Translations under genes and position numbers: made by a program
Shown here: positions 7,145-46,999 of the stretch, one piece after another
Layout: every line of letters starts with the position of its first letter
How positions within the stretch are numbered: position 1 is the stretch's first letter
The notes under the pieces: model-generated
Database searches by the model: none
What the model saw: the letters and a program-made list of their open reading frames with translations, nothing else
What the model was told of the DNA's origin: nothing
Virus record (IMG/VR): IMGVR_UViG_3300028895_000256
Span: 1-46,999 of that record
Direction: 5' to 3' (one strand)
DNA length: 46,999 nt
Origin: a virus

Positions 7145-9664
7145 TCAGATCTTGAATCCGGTCATGGGCTCGGTCGCAGGGATGGCGGTCAGCAGGTACT
7201 GCTCGCCCCTGACAATCGGGATCCAGATCGATCGGCACTGGTAGTGGTTCGGGGGGTTGTTGGCCATGACTCGCGGGTCGTCGGCCCGCATGACCGTCCC
7301 GTTCCAGTCACGGCAGAACTCGGTGGTCCGGTCGTCCATGATCGACGAGTACTCGTAGGCCACGATGAAGGTCCCCACTTCGGGGTGCTGCATCATGTTC
7401 ATGCGGCCGGTCGAGTAGGCTTCGGCGAGGTTCGTGCGGACGATGTTCTCGACGCGCCACGGGTTGGCCAGGGCCGGGTCCAGCGCTCCTGGGTCAGCCA
7501 GGTATGGCATGAAGATGTCGTTGACCGCCAGCTGCATCTGGGCCAGCGTGGCGCCCCTGATCATTCCCTTGCCCAGCGTCACCTGGACCCGGCCGAGAAG
7601 CTCATCGCTGAACGCGCCGGTGATGGTGAAGGACTGCCGGCTGTACTGCGCGAGCAGCTGGCGCTGGATCGGGACCTTGCCCTTCCAGTAGTCGATGATG
7701 TCGCGGCGGGTGGACGTGTAGGCGTGGTTCGCGCCGGCCGCCTCGATGACTCCGTGGTCGAAGAGCGCTCGACTGATCGGGACTGCGTAGGGATGGTCAG
7801 GCGAGGGCGGGGCGACCGTGTAGTTGGTGTTCATCGTGTCACCGAGGTTCTCGATCTCGGGCACCGGCGTCCCGACAGCCTTGATCCCACGCCGGACCTC
7901 GGAGAAGGCGTCGGCGGCCCCCCGGTGGAGGGCATGCCCTGTGAGCCGCTCCAGAGCAGCCCGGAGCTCGCCGACGCCAACCATCCGAAGTTTTCCAATC
8001 TCCGACTGGTCCCTCGTCTCTGCGAGCTTCCGCTTGCGGATCGTCTCGTTAAGCCCGCGCCGCATGCCGTCGATGATCTCGGTGATCTCCGCGATCGACT
8101 CGGCTTCCTCGCGATCGTGGGCAGCCGCGATCTCGACGTGCTTATGCTTGGCGGCGTGTTTCAGCTGCCGGGCCCCGTCCGCCCCTGCTGCATGGTCAGC
8201 CTGACGATGGTGCGTGGCGGCGACGGGATCGCCTTGCTTCCCATCTGCAGGAGGGGCTGGCGGATCCGAGTTGGGGTCCGGATCCGCGACGGGCGGGGGC
8301 GGGGCCGGCAGTCTAGTGGGCTTAGGGGGCGGCGGGAGTTGGCGCTCAGGCAGGTCGAGCCTCTGGCGGGCCACGTCGAAGTCAGACTGGTCATCCGGGT
8401 CGAGAACCCTGCAATCGACCATCTTCGCGACGGCGTCGACGCGCTCCTGCATCGTCTCTTCGGCGTACTCTCGCCACCTGAATTCAGGGTAGCGATCGGT
8501 GCGGAAGTTCAGGTCGATCAGCGGCCGGATGACCTGATCACCCATCACGTCTTCGGCCAGGCGCTCGCCGAGCGCGTCGAGGACCCATGTGAAGTTGTCG
8601 GCGTGGCGCTGGCCGAGGCTGTAGGCGCCGCGCTCGCCTTCGCTGCTGATCAGGCTGGGCAGCAGGACCGCCTTGCGGATCTGGGCGTCGCAGTACTTCA
8701 GCCCGTCCTGGTAGTCCACTCCGCGGCGGGCGCTCTCGATCAGCTCGAGCTCCCAATCCTTCGGCACGATCGCGGCGCCCTTGCCCTTGAGCCCCTCGAG
8801 GAAGCCGAGGACCTCGGCCTTGTCCGATGGATCGGTGTTCGGCTCGAACTTGCCGACCGCGCTCGGCGCGGCGTACCGCTCGAGGAACAGGAACCACAGC
8901 TGCGGCAGGATCTGCTTCGCCTTGAACCACCGGTACGCTGCGCGGAGCTCGCTGCGGCCGACGTAGCTGCCCTTCCCCCGCCAGACCCAGATCACGAAGT
9001 AGTTGTGGTCGAGGGTGGTGAAGGTATTGGTGATGCCCTGGCGCTGCTCGAGGCGCTCGAGGTTGCCGTGCTTGTCGGTGATGAATCGGAAGGTCTTAAT
9101 CGGGCGGGGCTTGATTGCTTGGAGTCCGACCTTCCCGCGCCACTCGCCCTCGGTGATCGGCCGGTAGATCCGCTCGTTCACGCTGGCCCCGAAGCTGAGG
9201 GCGTCCATCGCGTTCTCGAGGAACTCGGAGACCGTCCCGCGCATCTGCTGCAGCTGGGCCCGGATGAACTCGGCGTGCTGTTGATGCTCACGCTCATCGC
9301 TGGCCGGCTCAATCTCCCAGCCTGAACTCAGGCGGGCCAGGATCTTGTACTGCATGGCGCTGAAGACTTCGGCGTCTTCATCCAGCATCTCCTGGTAGTC
9401 CTCGATCTCGAGCTCGCCTTCGGGCTTGTATTCGATCCCGTACTCGCCCATCAGGTACTCGAGCAGCCCGTGCTCCCGGACCTCGGCTTTCTCGCCCCAC
9501 TTGGTCCCGCTGATCATCCCGTCTTCCGTGTCGCTGCGGCGGGCATGCTGGGCCTGCGGGCCCTCGGGTCCACGGTCGATCACGCGCAGGTCATCCGGCG
9601 CTTGGCGGCTGCCGAAGCTGACCTTGAACTGCTTGTTTGAGAAGGGGAGACTGATAATCGCCAC
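7145..9664 (-). CDS. Portal (DUF935, Mu gp29-like) fused to MuF head morphogenesis domain
   Basis: 839 residues, GTG start (9662-9664) ten bases after GGGAGG; the frame upstream runs into the promoter region and is not used. Residues about 60-430 form the portal: EDAEVFSAMQYKILARLSSG, a KPRPIKTFRFITDKHGNLER segment and LLPSLISSEGERGAYSLG are typical of DUF935 portals. A proline-rich linker follows at about 440-470, then a basic/histidine-rich helix region. The C-terminal part (about 580-839) is MuF: NIVRTNLAEAYSTGR, ILD-type catalytic-like DDRTTEFCRDWNG and PPNHYQCRSIWIPI match Phage_Mu_F. The portal and MuF are usually separate adjacent genes; here they are one polypeptide without an internal stop. 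Confidence 0.85.
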   Translation of the reverse strand: MAIISLPFSNKQFKVSFGSRQAPDDLRVIDRGPEGPQAQHARRSDTEDGMISGTKWGEKAEVREHGLLEYLMGEYGIEYKPEGELEIEDYQEMLDEDAEVFSAMQYKILARLSSGWEIEPASDEREHQQHAEFIRAQLQQMRGTVSEFLENAMDALSFGASVNERIYRPITEGEWRGKVGLQAIKPRPIKTFRFITDKHGNLERLEQRQGITNTFTTLDHNYFVIWVWRGKGSYVGRSELRAAYRWFKAKQILPQLWFLFLERYAAPSAVGKFEPNTDPSDKAEVLGFLEGLKGKGAAIVPKDWELELIESARRGVDYQDGLKYCDAQIRKAVLLPSLISSEGERGAYSLGQRHADNFTWVLDALGERLAEDVMGDQVIRPLIDLNFRTDRYPEFRWREYAEETMQERVDAVAKMVDCRVLDPDDQSDFDVARQRLDLPERQLPPPPKPTRLPAPPPPVADPDPNSDPPAPPADGKQGDPVAATHHRQADHAAGADGARQLKHAAKHKHVEIAAAHDREEAESIAEITEIIDGMRRGLNETIRKRKLAETRDQSEIGKLRMVGVGELRAALERLTGHALHRGAADAFSEVRRGIKAVGTPVPEIENLGDTMNTNYTVAPPSPDHPYAVPISRALFDHGVIEAAGANHAYTSTRRDIIDYWKGKVPIQRQLLAQYSRQSFTITGAFSDELLGRVQVTLGKGMIRGATLAQMQLAVNDIFMPYLADPGALDPALANPWRVENIVRTNLAEAYSTGRMNMMQHPEVGTFIVAYEYSSIMDDRTTEFCRDWNGTVMRADDPRVMANNPPNHYQCRSIWIPIVRGEQYLLTAIPATEPMTGFKI

Positions 9665-9716
9665 GGCACCTCCCTGTCGCCGCGGCGAAAATAGCCCGCC
9701 GCACACACTTCCTGTC

Positions 9717-9749
9717 AAGTGTCCACTTTTGGGGTGTCCGCACAAAATA
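9717..9749 (-). promoter_or_regulatory. Conserved intergenic cassette, copy 3
   Basis: Core TGTCCGCACAAAATA (9735-9749), a two-base-deleted variant of the consensus. In the minus direction it is followed by AAGTG-GA-CACTT (9717-9728). A TTGACA hexamer (plus-strand tgtcaa at 9713-9718) overlaps the dyad, with TATTTT 19 bases further, a weak sigma70 match. The 172-base gap between terminase and portal genes holds this cassette and no gene. Confidence 0.6.
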
Positions 9750-12375: not shown

Positions 12376-12450
12376 TGGTTGAGGGGTCCGGAATCGAACC
12401 GGAGTAGGCCGGGTTATGGGCCCGGCTGGGCAGCCAGCAGCCTCCCCTCA
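12376..12450 (-). tRNA. tRNA-Met (CAT), initiator-like anticodon stem, encoded CCA
   Basis: A complete cloverleaf: acceptor TGAGGGG/CCCCTCA, D stem GCTG/CAGC with a GG-containing loop, anticodon stem CCGGG/CCCGG around CCCATAA (anticodon CAT), T stem TCCGG/CCGGA around TTCGATT, discriminator A, encoded CCA (12376-12378). The anticodon stem has three consecutive G:C pairs next to the loop, a feature of initiator tRNAs, but the 1:72 position is a T-A pair rather than the bacterial initiator mismatch. Position 33 is C where bacterial tRNAs have U. Its first three bases are the TGA stop of the gene at 12448-12651. Confidence 0.85.
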
Positions 12451-12651
12451 TCGGTTGTCGAGTATCCTCCCCATGCGCCTGGTCTGCAGTGGTGTCATCG
12501 TGCTCGAGCGCAGCAATGGCCGGAAGCCCTCGAGCATGCTGGCGGCGTGGCGCTGCATACTGGCGGCCTCGGTTCCCTCCCCCATGTCCTCATCGATCTC
12601 GTCCGCTTCCTTGCGGAGCCAAGCGATCACTTCGTCGATGGTCGGATCCAC
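12448..12651 (-). CDS. Small helical protein of the local repeat family
   Basis: 67 residues from a GTG (12649-12651) seven bases after GGAGGCG; the longer frame to 12762 reads through a GC-rich inverted repeat and looks non-coding. The sequence TIDEVIAWLRKEADEIDEDM followed by a second helix with HAASMLEGFRPLL is a two-helix module resembling those repeated in the genes at 13251 and 12787. Its stop codon forms the first bases of the tRNA-Met gene, so transcript processing would separate them. Function unknown. Confidence 0.65.
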   Translation of the reverse strand: MDPTIDEVIAWLRKEADEIDEDMGEGTEAASMQRHAASMLEGFRPLLRSSTMTPLQTRRMGRILDNR

Positions 12652-15646: not shown

Positions 15647-16078
15647 TCAGTGGTTCTTCATGCCCTCCAGCAGCTTGGTCGTCTCTGCGGTGATCCACGC
15701 GTCTGCGTAGCGGTTCAGGGTCCCGTCTGGCAGGACGAGCCCCAGCCGGATCGCCCGCTTCGCCGTCCCCGCCACGTCGATCGCGGCGCCGAGCAGCTGG
15801 CGCATGACGGTGGCGTCGGGCGCCAGCCCCTCCCAGGCGACGGCCGTCTGCTCGGCCGCCGGCAGGTCTGCCAAGTCCTCGACCTGCGCGGGCGGCTCCC
15901 CCGTGGCCTGGTAGTCGTCTGGGGCCGTCCCGATCGGCACCAGGTGCCAGATGGCGACTAGGCGCTGCAGGTAGTTGTCCCGCGCCATAATCTGGACCGA
16001 GCGCATCGCGTTTTCATCGGCCCTCAGAAGTTCAACGGCTTCAGTCTGTTGCTCCGTCAGAGGCTTCCTGTGAGCCAT
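15647..16078 (-). CDS. Unknown alpha-helical protein
   Basis: 143 residues from the second ATG (16076-16078, MAHRKPLTEQQTEAV), because the first one (16084) abuts GGAGG. Almost entirely helical by pattern: a charged N-terminal helix, ARDNYLQRLVAIWHLVPIG, a polar acidic linker (about 60-75), then ATVMRQLLGAAIDVAGTAKR and YADAWITAETTKLLEGM. It overlaps the 3' end of the methyltransferase gene by 38 bases in another frame. No family recognised. Confidence 0.6.
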   Translation of the reverse strand: MAHRKPLTEQQTEAVELLRADENAMRSVQIMARDNYLQRLVAIWHLVPIGTAPDDYQATGEPPAQVEDLADLPAAEQTAVAWEGLAPDATVMRQLLGAAIDVAGTAKRAIRLGLVLPDGTLNRYADAWITAETTKLLEGMKNH

Positions 16079-17759
16079 CGGCATCCTCCTCTCGGTGGAC
16101 GAGCTCGGCGTGGCCCCCCGTGAAATCCTCCCAGCGCCGGACCGCGATGTCGATGAAGGCGGGGTTCCGCTCGACCGCGTAGCACCGGCGCCCCGTGAGC
16201 TCTGCGGCGATCAGGCTGGTCCCGCTCCCGCAGAAGGCGTCGAGGATGATGTGCCCTGGGCGCGTGTGCTTCATCAGGGGGAGCTCGAAGACCCGGACCG
16301 GCTTCTGGGTAGGGTGCAGCCCGGCGCTGCGGGATCGCCCTTCCCAGCCCGCCTCCCAGACGTTGGAGTACTCGCCGGCGACCGGGTTGAGCATCGGCTT
16401 GTGGCCCTTCACCCAGCCCATGGCCAGGTGCTTGGCTCGCCGCTCCCACTCGACCAGGTCATCTGGGCCTTCGATGGCCAGCAGCCCCTCGATCAGGCGC
16501 CCGATCTTCGCCTGGGTCTCGCTCCAGGGCTTACGCTCCCCGTTCTCGTTCCGACCAAGGTAGCAGGGCTCGCATCTCCAATTCCAGACGCTGAAGCCCA
16601 TCACGTGGGTCGGCTTGACCCAGGTGATCGCTTGGTGGACGCGGATCCCGGCCGCCGCGAGGGCCTCGCGGAAGACGTGGGCGGTGCTGCTGGCGTGCCA
16701 GACGTACCAGGCGGCGTTCTCGCGGGTGACGCCGGCGATGGCGTTGAAGGCGCGGACCAGGAAGTCCTTGAAGTGAGCCTGGCTCGGAAAATGATCCCAG
16801 GTTTCAGAATCCCACTCCGGCGCTGGCGGCTCGCCGGTGACTTCTGGGGTCTCGCCGCGCTCCCGGGCCTCCGCGGCGGCCTTGCGGGCGCCGGCGGCCG
16901 ACCGGGCCCAGCGCCCGAGCGCCAGGTCGGCCTGCGCATGGCAGTGCTTGCAGAGGATCTGGATGTTGCTGGGATCGTTGTTGTAGGTGTCCCCGTCGAC
17001 GTGGTGGCGGGTGAGGGTTACGCCGGGATCGGCGTTAGTGCGGTTGCACCGCTTCCCGTCGCGTATCCCCTCGCAGCTGCTGTCTGAGGTGATCGGGACG
17101 AGGCGCTGGGCCCGCTTACGGGCGCTGACCCGGCTGCAGTCGTATCCCACGCCGTAAGGGGGGTCGGTGATCACGATGTGGGCCTTCCGGCCGTCCATCA
17201 GCGCCGCGTAGGTCTCCGGGCGCAGGCTGTCCGCACAAATGAGCCGGTGGCGGCCGAGTTCCCAGATGTCCCCCAGCTTGGCTGTGGGGTCCTCGGGTGG
17301 TTCCGGCACGTCATCCTGCCCGGGCTTGGTCTTCACTGGGACCTGGCGCAGCAGCCTGCGGTTCTGAGCCTCGAGCTCCTCGAGGCGCAGGGCCTCGAAG
17401 GCTTCGGGGAGCGCCTGCTCGATCTCCGCGATCAGGTCGTGGACGTCGACGGTGAAGTGTCCGGCGAGGGCTGGGCTGTTGAGTGCGAGGTTCAGCGCCT
17501 TTTCCTCTTCGATCTCCAGGTCAACCACGACCACCGGGCTCTCGGTCTCGCCGGCCTCGATCAGGATCTCCCTCCGTTGATGGCCCCCGACGAGGTTTCC
17601 GGTGCGACGGTTCCAGACCGGGAGGTCGACCAGCCCGAAGCGCTCGAGGGAATTCTGCAGGCCGGCCCGCTCCTGATCGGTGATCCCCCTCGGATTGTAG
17701 TCGGCCGGGGTGAGGTCCTGGAGCTTCAGGATCTCGATGGTCGGCTTCTGGATTGGCAT
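16041..17759 (-). CDS. ParB-like domain fused to DNA methyltransferase with inserted HNH domain
   Basis: 572 residues. Residues about 8-135 are a ParB/Srx-like domain: NPRGITDQERAGLQNSLERF, then VGGHQRREIL (57-66). Residues about 160-550 are an amino-methyltransferase of the beta class (motif IV before motif I): GRHRLICADSL, TDPPYGVGYD (198-207), and FCGSGTSLIAAEL (509-521). Between motif IV and the next fold element lies an insertion with C229, C238, HH at 252-253, NN at 260-261 and CKHCH (270-274), the pattern of an HNH nuclease zinc fold. Expected activity is N4-cytosine or N6-adenine methylation, which could protect phage DNA from host restriction. The start follows a run of GGAGG repeats. 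Confidence 0.85.
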   Translation of the reverse strand: MPIQKPTIEILKLQDLTPADYNPRGITDQERAGLQNSLERFGLVDLPVWNRRTGNLVGGHQRREILIEAGETESPVVVVDLEIEEEKALNLALNSPALAGHFTVDVHDLIAEIEQALPEAFEALRLEELEAQNRRLLRQVPVKTKPGQDDVPEPPEDPTAKLGDIWELGRHRLICADSLRPETYAALMDGRKAHIVITDPPYGVGYDCSRVSARKRAQRLVPITSDSSCEGIRDGKRCNRTNADPGVTLTRHHVDGDTYNNDPSNIQILCKHCHAQADLALGRWARSAAGARKAAAEARERGETPEVTGEPPAPEWDSETWDHFPSQAHFKDFLVRAFNAIAGVTRENAAWYVWHASSTAHVFREALAAAGIRVHQAITWVKPTHVMGFSVWNWRCEPCYLGRNENGERKPWSETQAKIGRLIEGLLAIEGPDDLVEWERRAKHLAMGWVKGHKPMLNPVAGEYSNVWEAGWEGRSRSAGLHPTQKPVRVFELPLMKHTRPGHIILDAFCGSGTSLIAAELTGRRCYAVERNPAFIDIAVRRWEDFTGGHAELVHREEDADGSQEASDGATD

Positions 17760-19397: not shown

Positions 19398-19615
19398 GGT
19401 TTCCTCCCCATCCTCAACAAGGAAGCGGCGATAAGCGATCTACTGATCTTGTTATGGACGATCTCCTCGATGTCATTCCGGCGCTCGACGTTGTTGCCCC
19501 AGATCATCAAGAAGACGCCGATCGCCGCCATCCATCCTGCGGCGAGCCAGACGAGCGTGATGCCCACCAGGCCGATTGCGCATCCGGTGATGCACCTGAT
19601 TAATTTGGACTTCAT
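19394..19615 (-). CDS. Small inner-membrane protein, one or two TM segments
   Basis: 73 residues. A hydrophobic region at about 11-42 (ITGCAIGLVGITLVWLAAGW then MAAIGVFLMIWG) is long enough for two closely spaced membrane helices, followed by a charged C-terminal helix with ERRNDIEEIVHNKISRS. Good ribosome site; ATGA overlaps on both sides. Candidate for superinfection exclusion or membrane modification, but nothing specific supports that. Confidence 0.65.
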   Translation of the reverse strand: MKSKLIRCITGCAIGLVGITLVWLAAGWMAAIGVFLMIWGNNVERRNDIEEIVHNKISRSLIAASLLRMGRKP

Positions 19616-20538
19616 TCTCCTGCCTCCGTGTTGGGGTATTCGTCGTGGATCTTGCCGTCGAGGGTGCGGCCGGAGTGCTTCTTTCCGACGAGGTGCATCG
19701 AGACCTGGTTTCGGCCCATCGCGACTGGGCCGTCCATGTAAACCTCCGATGCCATACTAATCTGTCTCTTTCTGTAGCACGCAGCGCGCAGGTCCCTGTC
19801 GTAGCACGCTTCGCTGTATGGGACCCAGCTGCCCCACTGCTTGAAGACGAAAGGGACGCCAGCTTCGGCGCATTGGTCGCGCAGGGAACGGGGCCAGTCG
19901 GGGTGCATGGGCCGAGCGCCGGGGCCGGACTCCCCGCCGCAGATGACCCAATCGAGCCCAATGAGCGTGGTTCCCTTCATGCTCTCCGGGCCATCTATGT
20001 AGACGCCGGTTTGCAGGTCGACCGGCCCCAACATCGGCTCGACGCTCACGAACCGGACCGCCGCCGGCGTCCGCAGGAGCCATGGGATCCGGACGTCGGC
20101 CCACTTTTGGTTCTCGACGCTCGTGCCGCACCAGATGTTGGCCGGCGGCGGCGCCCCGTCGAGGGTGCAGGTGATCCAAAATTGCATGACCTGTGGTCGT
20201 TTGGTGAGCAGCAGGTAGGTGTTCCAGGGGGTCTCGACCATCGTGTCCCAGACCGCCTTGACCCAGGCGGTGTCCATGTCCTCATGGAACAGGTCGCCCA
20301 TGCTGTCGACGAAGACGAGCCGGCGCTCGCCGGGCTTGGGCTTCGGCCACCTGCGCGGCTGATCGATTCGGTCGGGATGGAAGGTCGGCCGGAAGGGGTT
20401 GTCGGCCGGGTACCCGAACCGGCCGCGCATGCGGGTGGCCATGCGCTCGGCGTAGCAGTTGGCGCAGCCTGCGCTGACCTTCGTGCAGCCGGTGATGGGG
20501 TTCCAGGTCTCGTGGCACCACTCGATCTTGGTCGGCAT
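19612..20538 (-). CDS. Gp37/Gp68-type (DUF5131) three-cysteine phage protein
   Basis: 308 residues. I prefer the ATG at 20536-20538 (MPTKIEWCHETWNPITGC) since the GTG two codons earlier is too close to AAAGGA. Family features: IEWCHETWNPITGC, C18-x6-C25-x2-C28 (the three-Cys motif), LVFVDSMGDLFHEDM, LLLTKRP, IWCGTSVENQ, VSVEPMLGPVDL, WVICGGESGPGARP and FKQWGSW. This is the widespread Gp37/Gp68 family, suspected of radical-SAM-like chemistry because of the cysteine cluster; its substrate is not established. Full-length, with all hallmark segments present. Confidence 0.8.
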   Translation of the reverse strand: MPTKIEWCHETWNPITGCTKVSAGCANCYAERMATRMRGRFGYPADNPFRPTFHPDRIDQPRRWPKPKPGERRLVFVDSMGDLFHEDMDTAWVKAVWDTMVETPWNTYLLLTKRPQVMQFWITCTLDGAPPPANIWCGTSVENQKWADVRIPWLLRTPAAVRFVSVEPMLGPVDLQTGVYIDGPESMKGTTLIGLDWVICGGESGPGARPMHPDWPRSLRDQCAEAGVPFVFKQWGSWVPYSEACYDRDLRAACYRKRQISMASEVYMDGPVAMGRNQVSMHLVGKKHSGRTLDGKIHDEYPNTEAGE

Positions 20539-20540
20539 GA

Positions 20541-21341
20541 TCACGTTCCTTTCTCTGCCATCTTGGAGTAGAGCTTCCTGAACACTTGGAGCTTGGCGAT
20601 CGTCTCGTCGAGGGTTCGCCCGACTCCCGGCGGGACGCCTGCCATAAGTTCACTCATCCTATTACGGAATTCCCACGACGTTGCATCAGGGTCGAGACCA
20701 TGGGACTTGAGCACCTTCTTGAAGCCCTCATACCTCTCAACCTCCCGCTTCGCCTGGTCGCGTTGTTGGCGGAGCTCGAGCCAGCCCTTTCGGATCTCTT
20801 CATGGATGTGCGCAGCTAGTAGCCGCCGGTCGGCCATGTCACTTTTCAGCCGCTCCATGCGCTCTGCACGGTCGAGATCCGGATCGCCCCCTCGGGACTC
20901 GCGCATGACTGCCCGATTGATCAGCAGGCTCTTGAGCACATCGAACAGCGCATCCTTGTCCGGCGCTCGGGCAGGCGCGTGCTTCTTGGTGAAGAGGCGT
21001 GTCCCGGTTTTTGCGGCGACCAGGAGTCCGGCCTCTGGCGGGATCTCGGTGGGGTCGCAGATCCCTGGGGCGGTGACGAAGAAGAACTCGGTGCAGTAGT
21101 CGAGGTACTTCCTCCACTTGGCGTCGCGGATGAAGTCTGAGCGCGTGACCTTGATCTCGTATCCCCACACGCGGGGGTCGGTCCAGCTGCGCTTCATCGC
21201 CCAGGCGTCCAGCTGCCCGTAGCCATGCGCGTAGGCGGTGCCGGTCGGGCACTCGCCGACCAGCAGGTCCCGTGTGTGCCGTGTCTGTAGGAGCCCGTAG
21301 AGCAGGCTCGCCGTGAACTTGACCGGTTCGGCTTTACCCAT
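20541..21341 (-). CDS. MmcB-like PD-(D/E)XK nuclease family protein
   Basis: 266 residues. Residues 40-110 contain GYGQLDAWAMKRSW (D45), GYEIKVTRSDFIRDAKWRKY (E62-x-K64) and FFFVTAPGICDPTEIPPEAG, the D...ExK core and following strand of the MmcB/DUF-type restriction-like fold. The C-terminal half (about 140-266) is charged and coiled-coil-like. Related bacterial proteins are tied to DNA repair and mutagenesis; phage copies may process phage or host DNA. It follows a small SH3-like gene and overlaps it by 8 bases. Confidence 0.7.
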   Translation of the reverse strand: MGKAEPVKFTASLLYGLLQTRHTRDLLVGECPTGTAYAHGYGQLDAWAMKRSWTDPRVWGYEIKVTRSDFIRDAKWRKYLDYCTEFFFVTAPGICDPTEIPPEAGLLVAAKTGTRLFTKKHAPARAPDKDALFDVLKSLLINRAVMRESRGGDPDLDRAERMERLKSDMADRRLLAAHIHEEIRKGWLELRQQRDQAKREVERYEGFKKVLKSHGLDPDATSWEFRNRMSELMAGVPPGVGRTLDETIAKLQVFRKLYSKMAEKGT

Positions 21342-28135: not shown

Positions 28136-28516
28136 TCAGCGGAGCTTGCTGCCGGTCTTGCTGGCCGGCGACCACTCCCCGCTCCGGGTCTCCCCGGTCT
28201 CCGGGTCGGTGTTCAGCCCCATCGCCCGGACGCGCTCGCCCCCTGGGGGGCGGGCCAGGATCGCGGCGATCGTGTCCTGTGTGACCGCCGTCATCGTCCA
28301 TGGGCCGTAGGTGCCAGTGCTGTCTGGCCGCTGGACCTCGACGATGTAGGCTTCGGCTCTGTCGGCTGGGGCCCAATGGTACAGGTAGCTCATGGGCTCC
28401 GGCAGGGGTTCGTGATTCACGAAGAGCCCCAGCTGACCGGCCAGCATCGTGAGGATCACGACCTGGTCAATGCTCGGCAGGGCCTGAATCGAATCAACCA
28501 GCGCTGCTGCTTCCAT
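28136..28516 (-). CDS. Unknown protein
   Basis: 126 residues from ATG 28514-28516 (MEAAALVDSIQALPS), eight bases after GGAAGG; a GTG three codons earlier is too close. A leucine-rich helical start (IDQVVILTMLAGQLGLFV) precedes YLYHWAPADRAEAYIVEVQR and a polar basic end. It overlaps the replication-initiator-like gene by 23 bases. No family recognised. Confidence 0.55.
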   Translation of the reverse strand: MEAAALVDSIQALPSIDQVVILTMLAGQLGLFVNHEPLPEPMSYLYHWAPADRAEAYIVEVQRPDSTGTYGPWTMTAVTQDTIAAILARPPGGERVRAMGLNTDPETGETRSGEWSPASKTGSKLR

Positions 28517-29348
28517 CTCGTTCACCTTCCGGTTGGTGGTCTCTGATCATGACCTTGAGTTGTTCCAGGTCTGGGATTTCCAGCTGGTCCTCCCCGGTGA
28601 TCCGCTTGGCGACAGTGTAGTAGAGTCCGTTGGTCTCCGTGCCGGCCGCCGGGTATCGATCGATTATGGTGTCGGCCAGGTCGTGGTCGCGATGGCGCCA
28701 TGCGCGGATGACCTCCGCGGCATCCCTCTGCCACTCCTCTGTGACGCGGTCGGCCAGGTCGATGTCCGAGAGCTTCCGGATCAGGAGGCTGGCGTCTCGC
28801 GAGAGCAGCCCCTTCATCCGGTAGCCCTGGGCTTCGACGAACTCGACATCGACCAACCCCCGCTCCCGGCACATCTTGTCGATCGTCTCGAGTTGGCTCT
28901 CGGTCGCCATGTTGGGCCGGCGGCCGGGACCTTCGTCTTGGGCTCGAGCATGCTTGAAGCCGGGCGGCGGAGGGTAGTTGCTTGGCTGTGGGAATGGGAC
29001 GTTCTGATAGCGAGCCCACTTCGTGATCTGGTAGAGGCGCTCCCCCTCGGGCCCGTCGTACTCGATGACCATGGACTTCTTCTTCCCGCGGGTCGCCGTC
29101 AGCATCTCGCGCAGGCGGTTGATCTCGACATCGTTGATCGCCCTGATCTCGCCGTCCCCCAGATCGAAGTGTTGCGTGTCGTAGGGGAATGCCCGCAGTT
29201 TCCAGACGCGATTGTCGCTTTCCTCTCGCCCCTCATCGTCGGCCATCATGATCATGGCGTTGAAGAGGAGTCGAGCAGCCATCGGCAGCGACTGGTAGTC
29301 CGGATCTTCGAGGATCCGAACCCAGAACATCCGCTTCCGTTCGGCCAT
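28494..29348 (-). CDS. Replication initiation / replisome-organiser-like protein
   Basis: 284 residues. The N-terminal 130 residues have the layout of phage replisome organisers: RMFWVRILEDPDYQSLPMAA, RLLFNAMIMMADDEGR, KLRAFPYDT, INRLREMLTATRG and YQITKWARYQNV, that is, a winged-helix domain beginning with a short 'd..y..Ls..arll...lil.aDdeGr' segment. A linker rich in proline (PSNYPPPPG) follows. The C-terminal part (about 145-260) is helical (MATESQLETIDKMC, ASLLIRKLSDIDLAD). Such proteins bind the phage origin and load host helicase. With no polymerase or helicase in the window, the phage would depend on the host replisome. Confidence 0.6.
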   Translation of the reverse strand: MAERKRMFWVRILEDPDYQSLPMAARLLFNAMIMMADDEGREESDNRVWKLRAFPYDTQHFDLGDGEIRAINDVEINRLREMLTATRGKKKSMVIEYDGPEGERLYQITKWARYQNVPFPQPSNYPPPPGFKHARAQDEGPGRRPNMATESQLETIDKMCRERGLVDVEFVEAQGYRMKGLLSRDASLLIRKLSDIDLADRVTEEWQRDAAEVIRAWRHRDHDLADTIIDRYPAAGTETNGLYYTVAKRITGEDQLEIPDLEQLKVMIRDHQPEGERDGSSSAG

Positions 29349-29647: not shown

Positions 29648-32600
29648 CTACCGGGTCTGTGCGATCTTGCTGTCGACTCCCTCGGCCTCGACCTCGAGGA
29701 GGCTGCCGGCGCAATCCGGCATCCCCTGGACGTGGCTGACGAACATGAAGAGCCCGCGGTTTTTCGCGATGTCCTGGATCGTCGCCTTCGCGGCGTCCAG
29801 GTGCTCCGGCTTCATCGTCCCGAAGCCCTCATCCTGCAGGCTCATCCAGATCTTCGTGCCGGTCGCCGACGCATGCAGGTCGGCGAGACCATTCTTCTTC
29901 GACATGCCCAGGGCCGTCGCCTGCTGCCCGCTGGCCATGCTGACCGGGTGTCGGCCGCGGTGGTCCCTGAACTCCATGTTCACGATGTTCCGAACCTCGC
30001 CGGTGGTGGTCTCTCGCTCGCTCGAGATCTCGACGCGCATGTTGGTCCCACTGAGGTAGCGGTTCATGTGCTGCTGCAGCGTGGGGATGGCGTACTGCTC
30101 GAGCAGGAGGAAGGGGATTCCATCGCGGTGCATCGCCTCGATGTAGGTGTCCATGGCTGCCATGGTGGCCTGCTGCTCATCGAGCTTGGCCTTGGCCATG
30201 TCCGCTTTCATCCGGTCGGCCTTCGACGATCGGACCGTATCCTCGAGGCTCTTGACCTGCGCTTCGGCTGCGGCGAGCTCCTGGGTCCAGGTCTGGCGGT
30301 CCTGGCGGTTGGTCGCCGCGCAGCCCCGGGCCCGCTCGAGCGCCGCCTCGGCCTCAGCCAGGGCGTGCTCGGCTGCAGCGAGATCGGCGGGGGGCATGGC
30401 CTTGAGGGTAGCCTGGGCCCGGCCGAGGCGCTCGGCGGCCGCGGCCTGATCCCCGGCGGCCCGCCGGATCTCCTGGATCTGCTCGCTGATCCTGGCGTTG
30501 GCCTCCCGGATCTGACTCGCATTGCGGATGGTGCTGTTAGCGGTGCTCTGGCGCTGGCGGGCGGCGGCGAGCTTGGTTTCGATCGCCTCCGCTTCGCCCT
30601 TGAGCCGCTCTTGCTCCCGCTCGAGGGCTTTCTCGCCGTCGCGCACCACCTGCTCGGCGGCGGCCTTCGTAGCGGCCTGTGCCTCGGTGATCGCTGCGAT
30701 CCGGTCGACCGTCTTCTGGCGTTCAATCGTCGTGTAGTCGCGGGCGGCCTCGGCGCCCGCCAGGTTCTGCTGGAGCGCCGGGATCCGGTCGCGGGCGGCC
30801 TTGGCGTCGGCCAGGAGCTTGCATTCGCCCATATCGACTATCCCCACTGCATCTTCCCATCCTTTCCCTTCGCACGGCACTTCGTCGATCAGCGCTGCCT
30901 GGCGCTCTGCGGTGGCCAGTAGGTCGCCCAGGCGCCTGACCTCCGACTTCTGATGCCCCAGGTCCTGGGCCTGCCGCTCTGTGGTCGCCACGAGCTCCTT
31001 GAGTTCCGGATCGGTCTCGCAGTCCCGCCTGCAGGTGCTCAGGGCCTTCGCAGCGGCCGCCAGGTCTTCCTTCAGGCGCCCCTCCTGTGAGCTCTGGACC
31101 AGGTCCTTCCTGGCCCCCTCAAGCTCGGAGATCTCCGCTGTGGCGGCGTCCAGGGCCTCCTGGGCTTCGGTGGTGTACGGCACGTCTTTGCGCTGGGCCT
31201 CGAGCTCAGTGATGCGCTGAGCCTCCCGGCCGGCGTCTACGGTGGCCTGCTCGAGCTCCTTGACCCTGGCGGCCGCCGTGGTCCGGGCGCTGGCCTTCGC
31301 CCGCTCCCCATCGAGGCTGACCTTCGCATCCGAAACAGCCCCAAGGGCGGTCTCGATGGTCTCCTGGTCTTTCTCCGGATCCGGGGCGTTGGCGAGGATC
31401 TCCCGGGCCAGCTGCAGGGCTCGCTGGGCCTGCGGGATCTTCGCTTCGGCTGCGCTCGCACGCTCGAGGACCCCATGAAGGGATGCGAGCTCGGTGCGGG
31501 CGGTGTTCGCCTTGTCGGATGCCTCCCGGCGCATGTCCTTCGCCCGTTTCTGCCGCTGCTCGAAGTTGCGCTGGAGCACGCTGACCAGCAGGTCCTTGTC
31601 TTCTGCGGGGGTGAGCTTCAGCAGTCCGTCGATGTCGTTCTGGCCCGCGTAGCTGATTGCCATGAAGATCTCGAAGGTCCCGACCAGGGCGTCGATCTGC
31701 CTCTGGACCTCGGGCGCCGTTCCTTTCTGGATCGGCACCCAGGATTCGTCTTCGATCACTCCGCTGGTCTTGTCGAGGCGCCAGAGGTAGGTCTTGCAGC
31801 CGGTGCGGCTGGCCAGCTTGATCTCCCGCCGGACGCGGTAGGTGTTGGGGCCGCTGCGGAAGGTCATCTGCACCCATGCGCGGTCAGTCCTCTTGCGGAC
31901 GAGGTTCTCCATCTTCTCGCCAGCCAGCTGCCGGCGGTAGAGGGCGAAGACAATAGCCCGGACGAAGTTGCTTTTCCCGCCGTAGTTGGGGCCGTCGATC
32001 GCCGTGACCGGCTCGAGCTTGGTGAAGTCCACGTCGATCTCCGGGTACTGGCACCAGTTGCTGGCCTGCAGCCGGAGCGGCTGCATCTCGTACCGTGCGT
32101 CGAGGTGCTCATCCTCCACCATCCCCTCGATCTGCTTGGTGAGTTCGAGGATCTGATCGGCGTCGTCTCCGGTGATCTCCTTGATCTCGAGGTACCGTTC
32201 CATCGCGGCGACCAGGGTCAGGTCGGTGTCGATCTCGAACTTCGCGGCCGCTGCGTCGGTCCGCTCCTCGATCACGCTCAGGGCCTCGAGCTTGTGCTCG
32301 GCACGTAGCTTCTCCTGGGCTGCAGGCGTCAGCCGGTCGAGCACGGCGCCGAGTGCCCGGGCCCGGATCCGCACGCGGGCGTGGGCGGGGATCGTCGCGA
32401 GCTCCGTACCGATCGCCTCCTCGATGTCGGCGTCGACCCCGTCCGCTCTGACCGTCCGCTCGACCAGCTGGCTGGCGACGATCAGCTTGTGGACCTGGAC
32501 CTTGTGCTCGCCGGTCTCGGTGTCGATCGTGTGGAGCAGCGCCGCGGGCTCGAGGAGCTCCTCGTTCCAGGTCAGTGGCGCGATCGCCCCCGCGTAGCAG

Positions 32601-33316
32601 AACTTGGGCAACCCCTCCTCGAACTCGATGGTCTGCCGGCGGTGGATGTGTCCGAGCAGGACGGCCGCGGCGCCGCGGAAGGCGGTCCGAGGGACGATCA
32701 CGTCCATCCCCCTGGTCATCATCTGCTCATTCCCAAGCTTGGCGCCGCCGACCGTGCCGTGGTAGAGCACGACCGGGACTGCGCCCTTGCTGCGGGCATC
32801 GACGATCGCTGCCTGGATGACCTGGCCCACCAGGGCGCCGGGATCTCCGATCTCCTCATCGGAATTCTGCTCGAGCGTCCTGATCGTCACCTTGTTTGGG
32901 CAGGGAATCATGATAATCGCGATGGCCGTGTCGTCGTCGAGCACGTAGTTGGTGACCATCGGCATGTTGGCAATCTGGATCTTGTCGGTGTAGGCGAGCT
33001 CCGGGCTCCCGGCGCCCGCCAGGATCCCGGTCAGGGTTCCGTGCATGCCCGCCGAGTATTCGTCGTCGTGGTTGCCCTTGAGCACCACCAGCCCGCGTCC
33101 GGACGCTTCGGCCAGGTGCGTGCAGTCTCGCCGGATGCGCCACGCGATGTCGTCGGACGTCGACCCTCGGTGCGTGGTTAGGTCGCCAGTATGGCCCACC
33201 AGATCCGGCTTGATCTCGCGGGCCTTTTCGATCAGGTCCTGGATCGGTGGCTCGACGTAGGCGCGGTTCTTCGGATCCAGGTGCCAGTCGCATGTGTGTA
33301 GGATCGTGAATTCCAC
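29648..33316 (-). CDS. SbcD (Mre11)-SbcC (Rad50) single-chain fusion
   Basis: 1222 residues, GTG start after GGAGG. Residues 1-330 are the Mre11/SbcD phosphoesterase: DWH (10-12), GD (44-45), GNHD (81-84), H186 and GHIH (222-225) supply the two-metal site. After a linker the Rad50/SbcC ATPase begins with Walker A GPNYGGKSN (442-450; Y replaces the usual G), then a QNDIDGLLKL Q-loop region (about 559-568). A coiled coil runs about 580-1040 with paired cysteines at C762/C766 and C815/C832, one of which probably forms the hook. The C-terminal lobe has signature SMASGQQ (about 1126-1132), Walker B WMSLQDE (to 1163) and an H-loop FVSH (about 1192-1195). The complex normally trims DNA ends and opens hairpins as two separate genes; here both halves are one protein. 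Confidence 0.9.
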   Translation of the reverse strand: MEFTILHTCDWHLDPKNRAYVEPPIQDLIEKAREIKPDLVGHTGDLTTHRGSTSDDIAWRIRRDCTHLAEASGRGLVVLKGNHDDEYSAGMHGTLTGILAGAGSPELAYTDKIQIANMPMVTNYVLDDDTAIAIIMIPCPNKVTIRTLEQNSDEEIGDPGALVGQVIQAAIVDARSKGAVPVVLYHGTVGGAKLGNEQMMTRGMDVIVPRTAFRGAAAVLLGHIHRRQTIEFEEGLPKFCYAGAIAPLTWNEELLEPAALLHTIDTETGEHKVQVHKLIVASQLVERTVRADGVDADIEEAIGTELATIPAHARVRIRARALGAVLDRLTPAAQEKLRAEHKLEALSVIEERTDAAAAKFEIDTDLTLVAAMERYLEIKEITGDDADQILELTKQIEGMVEDEHLDARYEMQPLRLQASNWCQYPEIDVDFTKLEPVTAIDGPNYGGKSNFVRAIVFALYRRQLAGEKMENLVRKRTDRAWVQMTFRSGPNTYRVRREIKLASRTGCKTYLWRLDKTSGVIEDESWVPIQKGTAPEVQRQIDALVGTFEIFMAISYAGQNDIDGLLKLTPAEDKDLLVSVLQRNFEQRQKRAKDMRREASDKANTARTELASLHGVLERASAAEAKIPQAQRALQLAREILANAPDPEKDQETIETALGAVSDAKVSLDGERAKASARTTAAARVKELEQATVDAGREAQRITELEAQRKDVPYTTEAQEALDAATAEISELEGARKDLVQSSQEGRLKEDLAAAAKALSTCRRDCETDPELKELVATTERQAQDLGHQKSEVRRLGDLLATAERQAALIDEVPCEGKGWEDAVGIVDMGECKLLADAKAARDRIPALQQNLAGAEAARDYTTIERQKTVDRIAAITEAQAATKAAAEQVVRDGEKALEREQERLKGEAEAIETKLAAARQRQSTANSTIRNASQIREANARISEQIQEIRRAAGDQAAAAERLGRAQATLKAMPPADLAAAEHALAEAEAALERARGCAATNRQDRQTWTQELAAAEAQVKSLEDTVRSSKADRMKADMAKAKLDEQQATMAAMDTYIEAMHRDGIPFLLLEQYAIPTLQQHMNRYLSGTNMRVEISSERETTTGEVRNIVNMEFRDHRGRHPVSMASGQQATALGMSKKNGLADLHASATGTKIWMSLQDEGFGTMKPEHLDAAKATIQDIAKNRGLFMFVSHVQGMPDCAGSLLEVEAEGVDSKIAQTR

Positions 33317-33332
33317 TCGTTTGCCTCCGTGG

Positions 33333-33443
33333 TTAGCTGAACAAATAAATTGGCACCAGCCAGATCAGGTTCACGAGAGAGGCGCCGGTTGCGACCCCGA
33401 TCCAGTATTCCTTCGTCCTGTAGGCCGGCACTCCGCTGCTCAT
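33333..33443 (-). CDS. 36-residue single-pass membrane protein
   Basis: A small gene fitted between the possible annealing protein and the SbcDC fusion. ATG (33441-33443) overlaps the upstream stop as ATGA, GGAGGGGAA is just before it, TAA at 33333-33335. Peptide: polar start MSSGVPAYRTKEYWIG, then a membrane helix (about 14-34) rich in V, L, I and W. Coding is supported by the exact fit in the gap and by the site. Role unknown. Confidence 0.6.
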   Translation of the reverse strand: MSSGVPAYRTKEYWIGVATGASLVNLIWLVPIYLFS

Positions 33444-34789
33444 TTCCCCTCCCGCATGACGTTCACGCGCTCGAGCGCCTCATCGCAGTTGATGTCCCGC
33501 GCCAGCTTGTGGAGCTTCGCCGGGTCCAGGGGATCGCAGATCGTCTGCAGGTACGTGCGCACCTTGTCCCCGTTTTCCTCGTCGGTCATCCGGGCTGCGT
33601 GCATCGAGAGGATCGGCAGCGCCGCCGTCGCCTCCTCGGTCGACCAGGGCCCGGACTGGAGCGTCGGGTCCGGCATGGCCTCCCCCTCGGCGGGGTGCGG
33701 CCCTTCGCGGCGGGCCGCGAATTCGGCCCGGAGGGTCTGCTTGCGATCCTCGGCCGCCGCGATGAACCAGTCCCCGGCTTCGGGGGCGAGTCTGTACTTG
33801 CCCACGATGTTGTCGACGTGATCCGGGACCGTCGCGGCCTCGAGCTTCTGCATGAGCTCGACCTTCGAGATCCCGGCGACCTCGGGGTCGATCTCGCCGG
33901 TGGCCTCGTTGACGGAGGCAGGTGCGGCGTCAGTGACAGTCGCCTCCGCTGCCTGCGGCCCGCTCTCGCCCGCCGCGAGTGCGCCGGCGGTCGGCTGTGG
34001 GGCATCGAGGAGCAGAGCAGCGAGCCCATCGATCGCCGCAGGGCCAAACACTTGGCGCTGCGCCTGCAGGCCAGCCATGACAACCATCCTCTTGATGTCC
34101 GGATCGCTCGTGTCGGGTGTGAAGCTGAATTTGATGATCGCGAATTGCTTTTTCCGGAGTTCCTCTGGCTTGAAGTTCGACTGCAATCCCACAAGTGCTC
34201 GGACTGCTCGAGCGATGGCTTTGCTCTCGGTCTTCGCTTCGGCGTCTCGTTGCTCCTTGATCCAGCGCTTCCGGAACTCGGCATCGATCTTTTCGTCTCT
34301 GTTCGCAGCGGTGCAGCCCTTCCATTTCTTTTTGATGTAGAAGTCGATCGTACTGATTGCCTGGTCCATGCAGTCCTGCCGCTCCACCGACGCCTTCCAG
34401 ATCCGTGTTCGGACCGCCGGGCGCAGGCCCCCACTCGGGTTGTTCATGGCAGCCACCGCCTTGTAGACGATTCTCGCGTCCGTGTTCTCCTTGGCCGGCT
34501 CAGCCATCGTGGCGATGTCGCCTGCGGCGCAGAGCAGGTCGAGGGCGGGCTTCTGCAGGGCGACGCTTTCGGGGTGATCGTACCACTCCCCGCTTTTGTC
34601 CTGCTTGCGCTTGGTTTTGACGGGATAGACCATATTGTCGTTGTCGGGGTCGATATTGACGACCGCGACATCCAGGCTCCACATCGGGAAATCCTGATCG
34701 ATGGTCCGCGTTACTTGGGGCATGAGGAGGATGTAGTCTTCTGGCTTGTACCGGTCGGCGACCGCACTGAAATCTAGTATCTGTGGCAT
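33440..34789 (-). CDS. Possible single-strand annealing / recombination protein
   Basis: 449 residues. The part from about 135 to 235 has a helical segment with AEAKTESKAIARAVRALVG followed by FKPEELRKKQFAIIKFSF, resembling the 'A.TkA..RA.R.l.g....y..eEl.kpfav' block near the end of the DNA-binding core of Rad52/Erf/RecT-type annealing proteins. The N-terminal part has DYILLMPQVTRTI and MWSLDVAVVNIDPDND. The C-terminal 180 residues are acidic and helical (SKVELMQKLEAAT, TEEATAALPIL). The neighbour SbcDC fusion supports a recombination role. The start lies behind a G(AG)6 repeat that forms its ribosome site. Confidence 0.45.
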   Translation of the reverse strand: MPQILDFSAVADRYKPEDYILLMPQVTRTIDQDFPMWSLDVAVVNIDPDNDNMVYPVKTKRKQDKSGEWYDHPESVALQKPALDLLCAAGDIATMAEPAKENTDARIVYKAVAAMNNPSGGLRPAVRTRIWKASVERQDCMDQAISTIDFYIKKKWKGCTAANRDEKIDAEFRKRWIKEQRDAEAKTESKAIARAVRALVGLQSNFKPEELRKKQFAIIKFSFTPDTSDPDIKRMVVMAGLQAQRQVFGPAAIDGLAALLLDAPQPTAGALAAGESGPQAAEATVTDAAPASVNEATGEIDPEVAGISKVELMQKLEAATVPDHVDNIVGKYRLAPEAGDWFIAAAEDRKQTLRAEFAARREGPHPAEGEAMPDPTLQSGPWSTEEATAALPILSMHAARMTDEENGDKVRTYLQTICDPLDPAKLHKLARDINCDEALERVNVMREGK

Positions 34790-44780: not shown

Positions 44781-46999
44781 GCCGGTGCCACCTCGATTCC
44801 CTGTTGCTTGAGCACGCGGACCAGGTCGTCCGCGACGAGCTCAGTCAGGCGCCGGATCCCCAGCCGGTCGCTGGCGGTGATGACGGTGCCCGGCTTCGGC
44901 TCGAGGCTGACGTTCACCTGCGTCACCTTGGTGGGGCCGCCGGCGCTGGCGGAGGCCACCGGGACCGCGACTCGCCCGCGCTTGTACCGGCCCTCGCGCA
45001 TGGCCTCGAGCTCGCTGGCGTACTGTCGACTGCGGCTCGTGGGCATGATGAACTCGCCGTCATTCAGCCAGGCGGGCCCCACGCGGTCGCGACCCTTCGG
45101 GCCTGACACCCAGCCCCCGTCGTAGAATGCCATCTTCCCGATCTCGCTAATCGTCTTGACCATCAAGGCGATCGACGCCAGGGCCGCCGGGATCCCAAAG
45201 GGGCCGAGGGGGCTGAAGAACGAGAAGAAGCCGGCGACCGCGTTCTTGATCCTGCTGAGCGTCGATGCATTGTTGGCCGCGATTTCGACGTTCGCAGCGG
45301 CGGCGCGGGCGGCGGCCCCACCGACCGCAGCGCTTGTCTTGGTTGTCTCAGAGGTGACCGTCGATGCGGTGCTGGTTGCGTCGTTCTTCAATTGCTCGAC
45401 CAGAATGTCGCCTAGATACCTCCATGCCACGCGCTTCATGTTTCCCCAGATGTCGGCCCACTTCTCGGCGCCCGTCATGCTCGTGTCGATGATCGAGTCC
45501 CAGCCGCGGCGGACGGACATCCCGAGTCCAGCCATGGCTTTGTCGGCTGCCGTCCGCGCCTTGTCGCCCTGCTTTTCGACGGCCTCCGCCAGCGGGAACG
45601 CCTCTTCAAGCTGCGGGCCCTGGAACTCCGGCATATCGAACACGGGTGTGTTCTTCCACTCCATCGTGGCCGGGAAGGGTCCGACCTCCTCCCCCTCGTA
45701 GAACTTGGAGCCCACCGCCTCCTTGATCGCTCGGCTGAGCTCCCCCTTGCCCCAGAGGCGCCGGAACTCCGCGATCATCTTGTCCCGCTGATCGTAGACA
45801 CGGTCGACGTTCTCGATCAGGGCGTTCTCTTCGTCCGCCCACTCGAGCCTGCTGAGCAGCTGGTCCCACTCAGCCTTGATCTCCTTCGACCTGTCGATAA
45901 TCCTGTTCAGGTTCTCACGGGCCGTGGCCTCCCGCTTGGCGCTGTAGGCATCGCGCCCGCCGGAATCCTCGAGCTCCTTGATGAACTGGATCTCGGCCTG
46001 CAGCAGCGCATGCTCACGACGCAGCATCCCTGACTCCGCTTGGAGTGCTGACATCGCTGTCTTGATCTGTTCGAGCGTCATCTCTTCGCCGGCATCGAAG
46101 ATCCCCACCACCTTGCCAGTCAGCCAGCCGATCGCCTTGCCCACCAGCGTGGTCTCGTTCTCGATCGAATGAACGAACTTGAGCCACGCCAGCTTGGCAT
46201 GCTCGAAGCCCGCCCGGAGCTCCGCACCGGCGTAGATCCCGACCTCGATCACGCGCTGCAGCACCGGGATCAGGCGCTCCCGGTTTTCGTTCACGAATTG
46301 AATGGCCCAATCGAGGACGGCCCGGAGCGCTGGTCTCATCTGATCGAAGACCACCAGGGCGGTCTCTTCGAGCGCCGAGCGGAAGATGCGCCACTGGCTC
46401 TGGACCGTGTCCATCTGCGTCTCGTACATCGAGTAAGCGGCGGTGGTCCCGGTGACCGCGTCGGTCATCTGATCGAAGCCCTCTTTCCCCGCAACGAGGA
46501 AGGCCCGCATCGCACCGTAGGCTCGGGGCCCGAACATCTCGACCATCTGCTCCGGCGTCAGCCGGGCCTTGCTGATCTTGTCGAGGGTCGCGGCGAACCC
46601 GTCGCCGGTGATGCTGACCCCGCCGAGCACCTTTTTCAGATCCTCGGTCGGCTTCAGCAGCCGGACCATCGCCATGCGCAGGCCGGTACCGGCGAGGCTC
46701 CCGCGCAGCCCGGCGTTGTGGAGCAGCCCCAGGGCGGCCACGGTTTCCTCGATGCTCATGCCGACCGAGGCGGCCGCCGGCCCCGCGAACTGCATGGAGT
46801 AGGTCAGACGCTCCATCGTCAGCATGCTGTTCTGGATGCCGGCGGCCATCGCGTTCACCACGCGGTCGGTGTCGTGAGCCTCGAGGCCGAACTGCTTCAG
46901 GGCGGCCACGTTGAGCTCTGCAGCCGAGCTCATGTCGCTGAGCGTGGCGCCGGCGAGCTTCAGGACCCCCTCGGTCGACGCGATGATCTGCTCGGTCTT
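44777..46999 (-). CDS. Tail tape-measure protein, main part (runs off right edge)
   Basis: 740 residues of TP901-type tape measure, open to the right edge and continuing the fragment at 1-305. It begins KTEQIIASTEGVLKLAGATL and has GLEAHDTDRVVNAMAAGIQN, the family's coupled-helix motif; SMSIEETVAALGLL and LKPTEDLKKVLGG also fit. A long helical/coiled-coil region (about 300-420) precedes hydrophobic segments near residue 595 (VAGFFSFFSPLGPFGIPAAL), typical for membrane-interacting ends. The C-terminus is GGWVSGPKGRDRVGPAWLND then a short basic end. Together with the N-terminal 101 residues the protein is about 840 residues plus the missing link, implying a tail of roughly 125 nm if the usual 0.15 nm per residue holds. 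Confidence 0.9.
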   Translation of the reverse strand, partial: KTEQIIASTEGVLKLAGATLSDMSSAAELNVAALKQFGLEAHDTDRVVNAMAAGIQNSMLTMERLTYSMQFAGPAAASVGMSIEETVAALGLLHNAGLRGSLAGTGLRMAMVRLLKPTEDLKKVLGGVSITGDGFAATLDKISKARLTPEQMVEMFGPRAYGAMRAFLVAGKEGFDQMTDAVTGTTAAYSMYETQMDTVQSQWRIFRSALEETALVVFDQMRPALRAVLDWAIQFVNENRERLIPVLQRVIEVGIYAGAELRAGFEHAKLAWLKFVHSIENETTLVGKAIGWLTGKVVGIFDAGEEMTLEQIKTAMSALQAESGMLRREHALLQAEIQFIKELEDSGGRDAYSAKREATARENLNRIIDRSKEIKAEWDQLLSRLEWADEENALIENVDRVYDQRDKMIAEFRRLWGKGELSRAIKEAVGSKFYEGEEVGPFPATMEWKNTPVFDMPEFQGPQLEEAFPLAEAVEKQGDKARTAADKAMAGLGMSVRRGWDSIIDTSMTGAEKWADIWGNMKRVAWRYLGDILVEQLKNDATSTASTVTSETTKTSAAVGGAAARAAAANVEIAANNASTLSRIKNAVAGFFSFFSPLGPFGIPAALASIALMVKTISEIGKMAFYDGGWVSGPKGRDRVGPAWLNDGEFIMPTSRSRQYASELEAMREGRYKRGRVAVPVASASAGGPTKVTQVNVSLEPKPGTVITASDRLGIRRLTELVADDLVRVLKQQGIEVAPA

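Follow-up and report, generated by a model that had tools for sequence, protein, structure and literature searches.

Gene structure and reading frame of the SbcD-SbcC fusion

The virus record IMGVR_UViG_3300028895_000256, one whole record of 46,999 bases that is analysed here in full and referred to as the window, encodes tailed-phage genes (major head, head protease, portal, terminase large subunit and tape measure) together with a protein in which an SbcD (Mre11)-type nuclease is followed by an SbcC (Rad50)-type ATPase. The protein is the product of a single uninterrupted open reading frame (ORF) that starts with GTG and stops with TAG; the frame, for which the initial annotation gave no strand, lies on the minus strand. 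The single-chain, nuclease-first arrangement proposed in the initial annotation is borne out by this one ORF, by matches to both families and by both folds. The segments of the gene are as follows.

29648..33316, minus strand: SbcD-SbcC (Mre11-Rad50) fusion gene, 1222 residues (ORF, Pfam, PHROGs, model and fold matches)
33324..33328, minus strand: ribosome-binding site, GGAGG, before the GTG start (read in the sequence)
32477..33316, minus strand: nuclease (calcineurin-like phosphoesterase) domain, residues 1-280 (Metallophos 4-226; fold match of the model to E. coli SbcD over 1-348)
32276..32461, minus strand: capping domain, residues about 286-347 (secondary structure of the model; SbcD alignment range)
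32114..32215, minus strand: helix-loop-helix, residues 368-401, expected to bind the SbcC coil (model; role from known structures, PMC3175470)
32090..32113, minus strand: linker, residues 402-409 (model; residue 411 of the model pairs with SbcC residue 1)
31565..32089, minus strand: ATPase N-lobe, residues 410-584, with Walker A 442-449 and Q559 (Pfam, alignment, model and fold match)
30881..31564, minus strand: coiled-coil arm 1, residues 585-812 (model)
30821..30880, minus strand: hook loop, residues 813-832, C815-x16-C832 (alignments and model)
30131..30820, minus strand: coiled-coil arm 2, residues 833-1062 (model)
29651..30130, minus strand: ATPase C-lobe, residues 1063-1222, with signature, Walker B and H-loop (alignment and fold match; the model stops at 1200)

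Third-position G+C is high and even, 0.77-0.97 across all 21 blocks of the frame and 0.88-0.90 at the junction between the halves, so that the whole fusion frame looks coding.

Domains, motifs and predicted structure

Among PHROGs families, the window protein matches phrog_100 (SbcD family) on residues 4-395 (2.7e-12) and phrog_77 (SbcC family) on residues 263-1211 (5.4e-46); among Pfam families, Metallophos scores above its cut-off on 4-226, and the AAA_23 and SMC_N matches fall below theirs. A sequence search of solved structures matched T. maritima Rad50 as well as bacterial and archaeal Mre11/SbcD and Rad50. The SbcD half contains all five phosphoesterase motifs, D10-W-H12, G44-D45, G81-N-H-D84, H186 and G222-H-I-H225, adding H186 to the DWH, GD, GNHD and GHIH motifs recognized earlier. 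The SbcC half carries Walker A (G442-PNYGGK-S449), the Q-loop (Q559), the signature (S1129-G1130), Walker B (D1162-E1163) and the H-loop (H1195). In a 41-row alignment of fused proteins, GD, GNHD, H186, G222/I224/H225, N444 and GKS 447-449 are invariant or nearly so, as are Q559, S1129-G1130, DE 1162-1163 and H1195 of the ATPase. The tyrosine in Walker A, previously singled out as a departure from the usual glycine, fits the consensus GxxxxGK[ST], and GKNYSGKS occurs in eight other fused loci (L031, L032, L033, L040, L050, L052, L068 and L086, the protein of L031 being that of L032).

An AlphaFold model of residues 1-1200 was obtained with a mean predicted local distance difference test score (pLDDT) of 74.7 and a predicted template modelling score (pTM) of 0.45, the latter meaning that the placement of the domains relative to each other is not reliable. 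Fold comparison gives E. coli SbcD for residues 1-348 of the model (Z 27.9) and E. coli SbcC, beginning at its residue 1, for residues 411-1200 (Z 28.2); the best Foldseek match has an E value of 1.2e-19. The model runs from the nuclease through the capping domain, two helices and the linker into the N-lobe, which begins at 410, and then through one coil arm, the loop 813-832 and the second arm into the C-lobe. The initial annotation mentioned cysteine pairs in the coil; of the two present, C815/C832 occupies the tip, within the loop that links the arms, with both cysteines invariant in a 10-row alignment and C832 invariant in the 41-row alignment, but C762/C766 sits within one arm and not at the tip.

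At the junction, the model places helices at 368-378 and 383-401 (pLDDT about 86-90), followed by the 8-residue linker, so that the capping domain, the helix-loop-helix region and a short linker are all present in the predicted structure. In known structures, Mre11/SbcD clasps the Rad50 coil root through its helix-loop-helix (PMC3175470). The initial annotation took covalent fusion to remove the usual interface; because the predicted structure retains the helix-loop-helix and the linker, the fusion appears instead to keep this interface and to tie it.

Fused relatives and the junction

The search for other two-domain proteins suggested by the initial annotation yielded many fused relatives in IMG/VR, in genome_contigs and among named phages. 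IMG/VR was scanned with fused queries and the best 80 loci were kept; a locus was called fused when one open frame gave both profile matches, some frames ending at contig ends; the collections overlap, and the counts are not prevalences. On this basis, 79 of the 80 best viral loci are single-frame fusions, and among the genome_contigs matches listed 18 of 78 loci are fused, all clostridial or from other Bacillota as judged by record titles, with 55 split and 5 holding one half. P0001 as the sole query of viral_contigs gave no relatives. Thirteen Mre11/Rad50 fusions, including Mimivirus R555, clostridial plasmid and genome copies and one from Bacillus phage 0305phi8-36, were described in 2011 by Yoshida, Claverie and Ogata, who argued for repeated fusion in viruses (PMC3175470). 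The joining of two normally separate genes, earlier presented as unusual, is therefore not so, being both published and frequent in phage contigs. The fusions of 2011 resemble the window protein in having an N-terminal nuclease, a C-terminal coiled ATPase, mostly a capping domain and helix-loop-helix, and a short linker, and in occurring in viruses and plasmids; the class includes C. kluyveri plasmid proteins, the likeness being one of description and not of letter-by-letter alignment, and a zinc hook goes unmentioned in the text of PMC3175470. The window protein is a divergent, intact-looking member of this class.

Over its full length, it is at most 25% identical to every relative found. The best relative, L210 (IMGVR_UViG_3300028610_001072; fused, 1173 residues, 25% identity over 1251 columns, E=1e-68), is collinear with it, has the same junction and shares a three-gene order in which the fusion is preceded by a phrog_13782 partner and followed by a DnaD-like loader, yet it has a C-x8-C hook in place of C-x16-C and an aspartate in the D-loop where the window has lysine. 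Fusions from clostridial genomes, prophages and gut phages (for example L012, L083, L114 and L002, the last being MT837445.1 and cut at its start) mostly adjoin the partner and replication genes as well, but are only about 20-23% identical and mostly have a C-x7-C hook. The 1066-residue protein of Microcystis phage Mel-JY01 (WWT39521.1, L003), annotated only as an AAA domain protein, is likewise fused but has a CxxC hook, and its fetched stretch revealed no phrog_13782 partner. The folds of both halves recur in E. coli SbcCD and T. maritima Mre11-Rad50, but as two separate chains. Further named phage fusions occur in LR756501 (L005) and in Listeria phage LMTA-57 (L006); the last, 1009 residues long, is annotated as one recombination exonuclease, and its nuclease domain, unmatched by the nuclease profile, is evident from annotation and sequence. 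Bacillus phage 043JT007 (L007) has two separate genes. Separately, in the huge phage LR756508 (L004) the halves are split by a cysteine-rich ORF of nuclease-like look (1976-2893), perhaps a mobile insertion.

In quick trees of 71 and 103 rows the branch leading to the window protein is very long; these two and a 40-row tree of 26 fused and 14 split proteins chosen from the 103 were built from these relatives, with no canonical cellular pair as a reference clade. In the 40-row tree the window protein and L210 lie outside the main fused clade, and the approximately unbiased (AU) test rejects one clade for all fusions (p-AU 3.6e-5), which suggests more than one fusion event. We hold this loosely, since long branches meet there; with the same caution, the recurrent-fusion view of PMC3175470 fits the tree.

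These relatives also bear on whether the junction could be an artefact of assembly or a frameshift, with two genes joined by the loss of a stop or start, as had been feared. The window is a metagenome-derived record, and an exact 30-base search of viral_contigs, a collection from which near copies may be left out, returned 0 further copies of the junction. Nevertheless, the coding signature is even across the junction, the phrog_77 match begins already at residue 263, neither M399 nor M410 has a ribosome site that could serve a separate SbcC half, L210 retains the same junction within full-length collinearity, and the best related loci are fused almost without exception. An artefact is very unlikely, to the point of being barely credible.

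Genomic neighbourhood and the phrog_13782 partner

Two genes on the same strand flank the fusion gene.

33440..34789, minus strand: phrog_13782 partner, upstream, 449 residues (PHROGs; kept beside SbcD/SbcC)
28494..29348, minus strand: replication initiation protein, downstream, 284 residues (phrog_1408, 1.6e-10; same place in relatives)

A scan anchored on the partner returned 80 loci, with SbcD/SbcC just downstream in 78 of them (58 fused, 16 split, 4 with one half) and the contig stopping shortly past the partner in the other two. The fused query contributed 73 further new loci, of which 62 are fused with the partner, 8 are split with it and 3 are split without it. Excluding the window, a partner relative lies directly upstream in 25 of the 27 fused loci of at least 1230 residues; short fusions (about 1050 residues) are mostly without it, none being present in the fetched stretch for 68 of the 79 fused loci of the IMG/VR scan. 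Downstream, a replication initiator or a DnaD-like loader was found in all six relatives tested (L002, L210, L012, L083, L072 and L030; for L055, L101, L249, L091, L318 and L234 the next genes were listed only), and in L210 a RuvC-like resolvase follows the DnaD-like loader. From this gene order, we read phrog_13782, the fused SbcDC and the replication initiator as a putative phage recombination and replication cassette.

An AlphaFold model of the partner (mean pLDDT 68) shows a sheet and a long helix in its N-terminal part. Its fold match to RAD52 (model residues 36-214) ranks 27th, below unrelated rows, with a Z of 4.7 and a root mean square deviation of 4.5 over 117 residues, and a Z under 8 may be chance. 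Neither the window partner nor eight relatives gave RecT, ERF or Rad52 matches in Pfam, and a PDB sequence search with the partner returned only chance zinc-finger matches. A study of annealing proteins in Firmicutes reports that sak4 is accompanied by sbcC in several streptococcal phages (PMC8093625); a literature search on annealing proteins together with SbcC, in which the name phrog_13782 was not itself searched, turned up no paper on this family. In 20 records of partner-bearing phages, RecT, ERF and RecA were each found in 0/20 and Rad52 in 1/20 (weak, G015); in a control of fused phages without the partner, RecA was found in 4/21, all four in records >120 kb, and RecT in 0/21. The idea that the recombinase slot of partner-bearing phages is otherwise empty was thus set aside and not used as evidence, the test failing to discriminate.

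As the sole query, the partner found only a chimeric piece of the same phage from another sample. In that sample, L090 is 99.9% the same phage, and its bases 1720-1810 correspond to window 34039-34129 (91 bases of the phrog_13782 gene), inverted inside the L090 tape-measure gene with 4-base overlaps; the inverted piece looks like an amplification or assembly chimera.

The neighbourhood is also informative about a different role, in which the protein, as a relative of Lamassu LmuB, would serve the phage as a weapon or in defence by degrading host or rival DNA. PADLOC does match the window protein to LmuB (8.7e-14 on 428-1030) and to mad3 (9.6e-8), but the phage SbcC match is far stronger (5.4e-46), the LmuB match covers the ATPase and coil common to SMC-like proteins, and the N-terminal half is an SbcD nuclease. 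Moreover, no Lamassu part such as LmuA or LmuC appears in the rows shown for the five other window proteins run through PADLOC, and the setting is that of a replication cassette. We consider a Lamassu-like function highly improbable.

Proposed function

The gene probably encodes, with good confidence on our part, the single-chain SbcD-SbcC nuclease-ATPase of a roughly 47 kb tailed phage, acting within a recombination and replication cassette; judged from motifs and modelled folds, its most likely role would be that of an end-processing nuclease for phage recombination. In the proposed mechanism, two copies of the fusion would pair through their nuclease domains and through ATP bound between the ATPase heads, and the helix-loop-helix of each copy would grip the coil root, keeping the known 2:2 architecture and fixing the dose at 1:1. 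DNA ends would be tethered by the coil, whose tip the cysteine hook closes; ATP hydrolysis would open the head, allowing the nuclease to trim or nick ends and hairpins. The resulting single strands may then feed recombination-dependent replication of the phage, with the phrog_13782 protein, given its position and company, probably acting on them.

Several observations weigh against this proposal. Besides the unreliable domain placement in the fusion model, a Foldseek search with the partner model gave no match at E<=0.001 and hence no clear fold match. The canonical CxxC spacing of the hook is replaced by C-x16-C: among 207 fused frames, the spacing is x7 in 130, x2 in 41, x6 in 16 and x16 in one, the window only. 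These hook counts, like those for the signature and D-loop, come from simple patterns, in which x14 and x15 are CxxC hooks read from an earlier cysteine and x9 are x7 hooks with an extra cysteine. At the D-loop position, lysine (K1169) is found in the window only, aspartate being present in 197 of the 207 full-length fused frames and 9 being unreadable by the pattern. The signature reads SGQQ, with Q1132 in place of glutamate, as in 16 of the 194 frames with a readable signature, the window included.

With respect to the hook, the natural spacings in phage fusions form classes (x2, x6, x7, x8 and x16). Because spacing varies in the fused set, C-x16-C does not exclude membership in SbcC/Rad50. 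The C-x8-C hook of L210 aligns with the same flanks as that of the window, indicating that the window hook loop has eight extra residues.

The D-loop aspartate is important for hydrolysis in phage Rad50, and K1169 together with Q1132 could slow ATP hydrolysis. Taken further, the two substitutions would make the protein mainly a structural tether, whose slow or dead ATPase bridges DNA ends but does not cut them. Walker A, the Walker B D/E pair, the H-loop and all nuclease residues are intact, however, and the signature glutamine is shared with other relatives, including L210; we regard a mainly bridging role as unlikely.

A more far-reaching possibility, to which we give some but less than even credence, is that phrog_13782 is an unnamed phage recombinase or mediator working obligately with SbcD/SbcC, the two forming a two-part system comparable to Red or RecET but with an ATP-driven Mre11-Rad50 exonuclease, and that the window branch fused independently and widened its non-CxxC hook.

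Apart from illustrating that this architecture is common in phages, the fusion as such contributes little; the additions made here are the counts, the hook spacings and the close association with phrog_13782. Structural and single-molecule studies of Mre11-Rad50 can profit from single-chain forms with a fixed 1:1 ratio, the variety of naturally occurring hook spacings allows zinc-hook requirements to be tested, and phrog_13782 becomes a named candidate for the missing recombinase in SbcDC-carrying phages.

Other features of the phage genome

In L090, window positions 46999 and 1 are connected by 46 additional bases; the record thus resembles a nearly complete genome, circular or permuted, with its opening point within the tape-measure gene. 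A portal protein and a MuF-like minor head domain share one ORF at 7148-9745 (phrog_113 and phrog_220), and a tRNA-Met gene lies at 12376-12453. At 16044-17759, one ORF carries a ParB-like part together with an HNH nuclease segment (about 208-290) and a DNA methyltransferase. The ORF at 19615-20544 encodes a DUF5131 protein (1.3e-91) that is also close to the PADLOC candidate defence proteins PDC-M41B and PDC-M30B, and the 508-residue ORF at 25086-26612 matches the hypothetical glycosyl hydrolase family GHL15 (3.1e-7).

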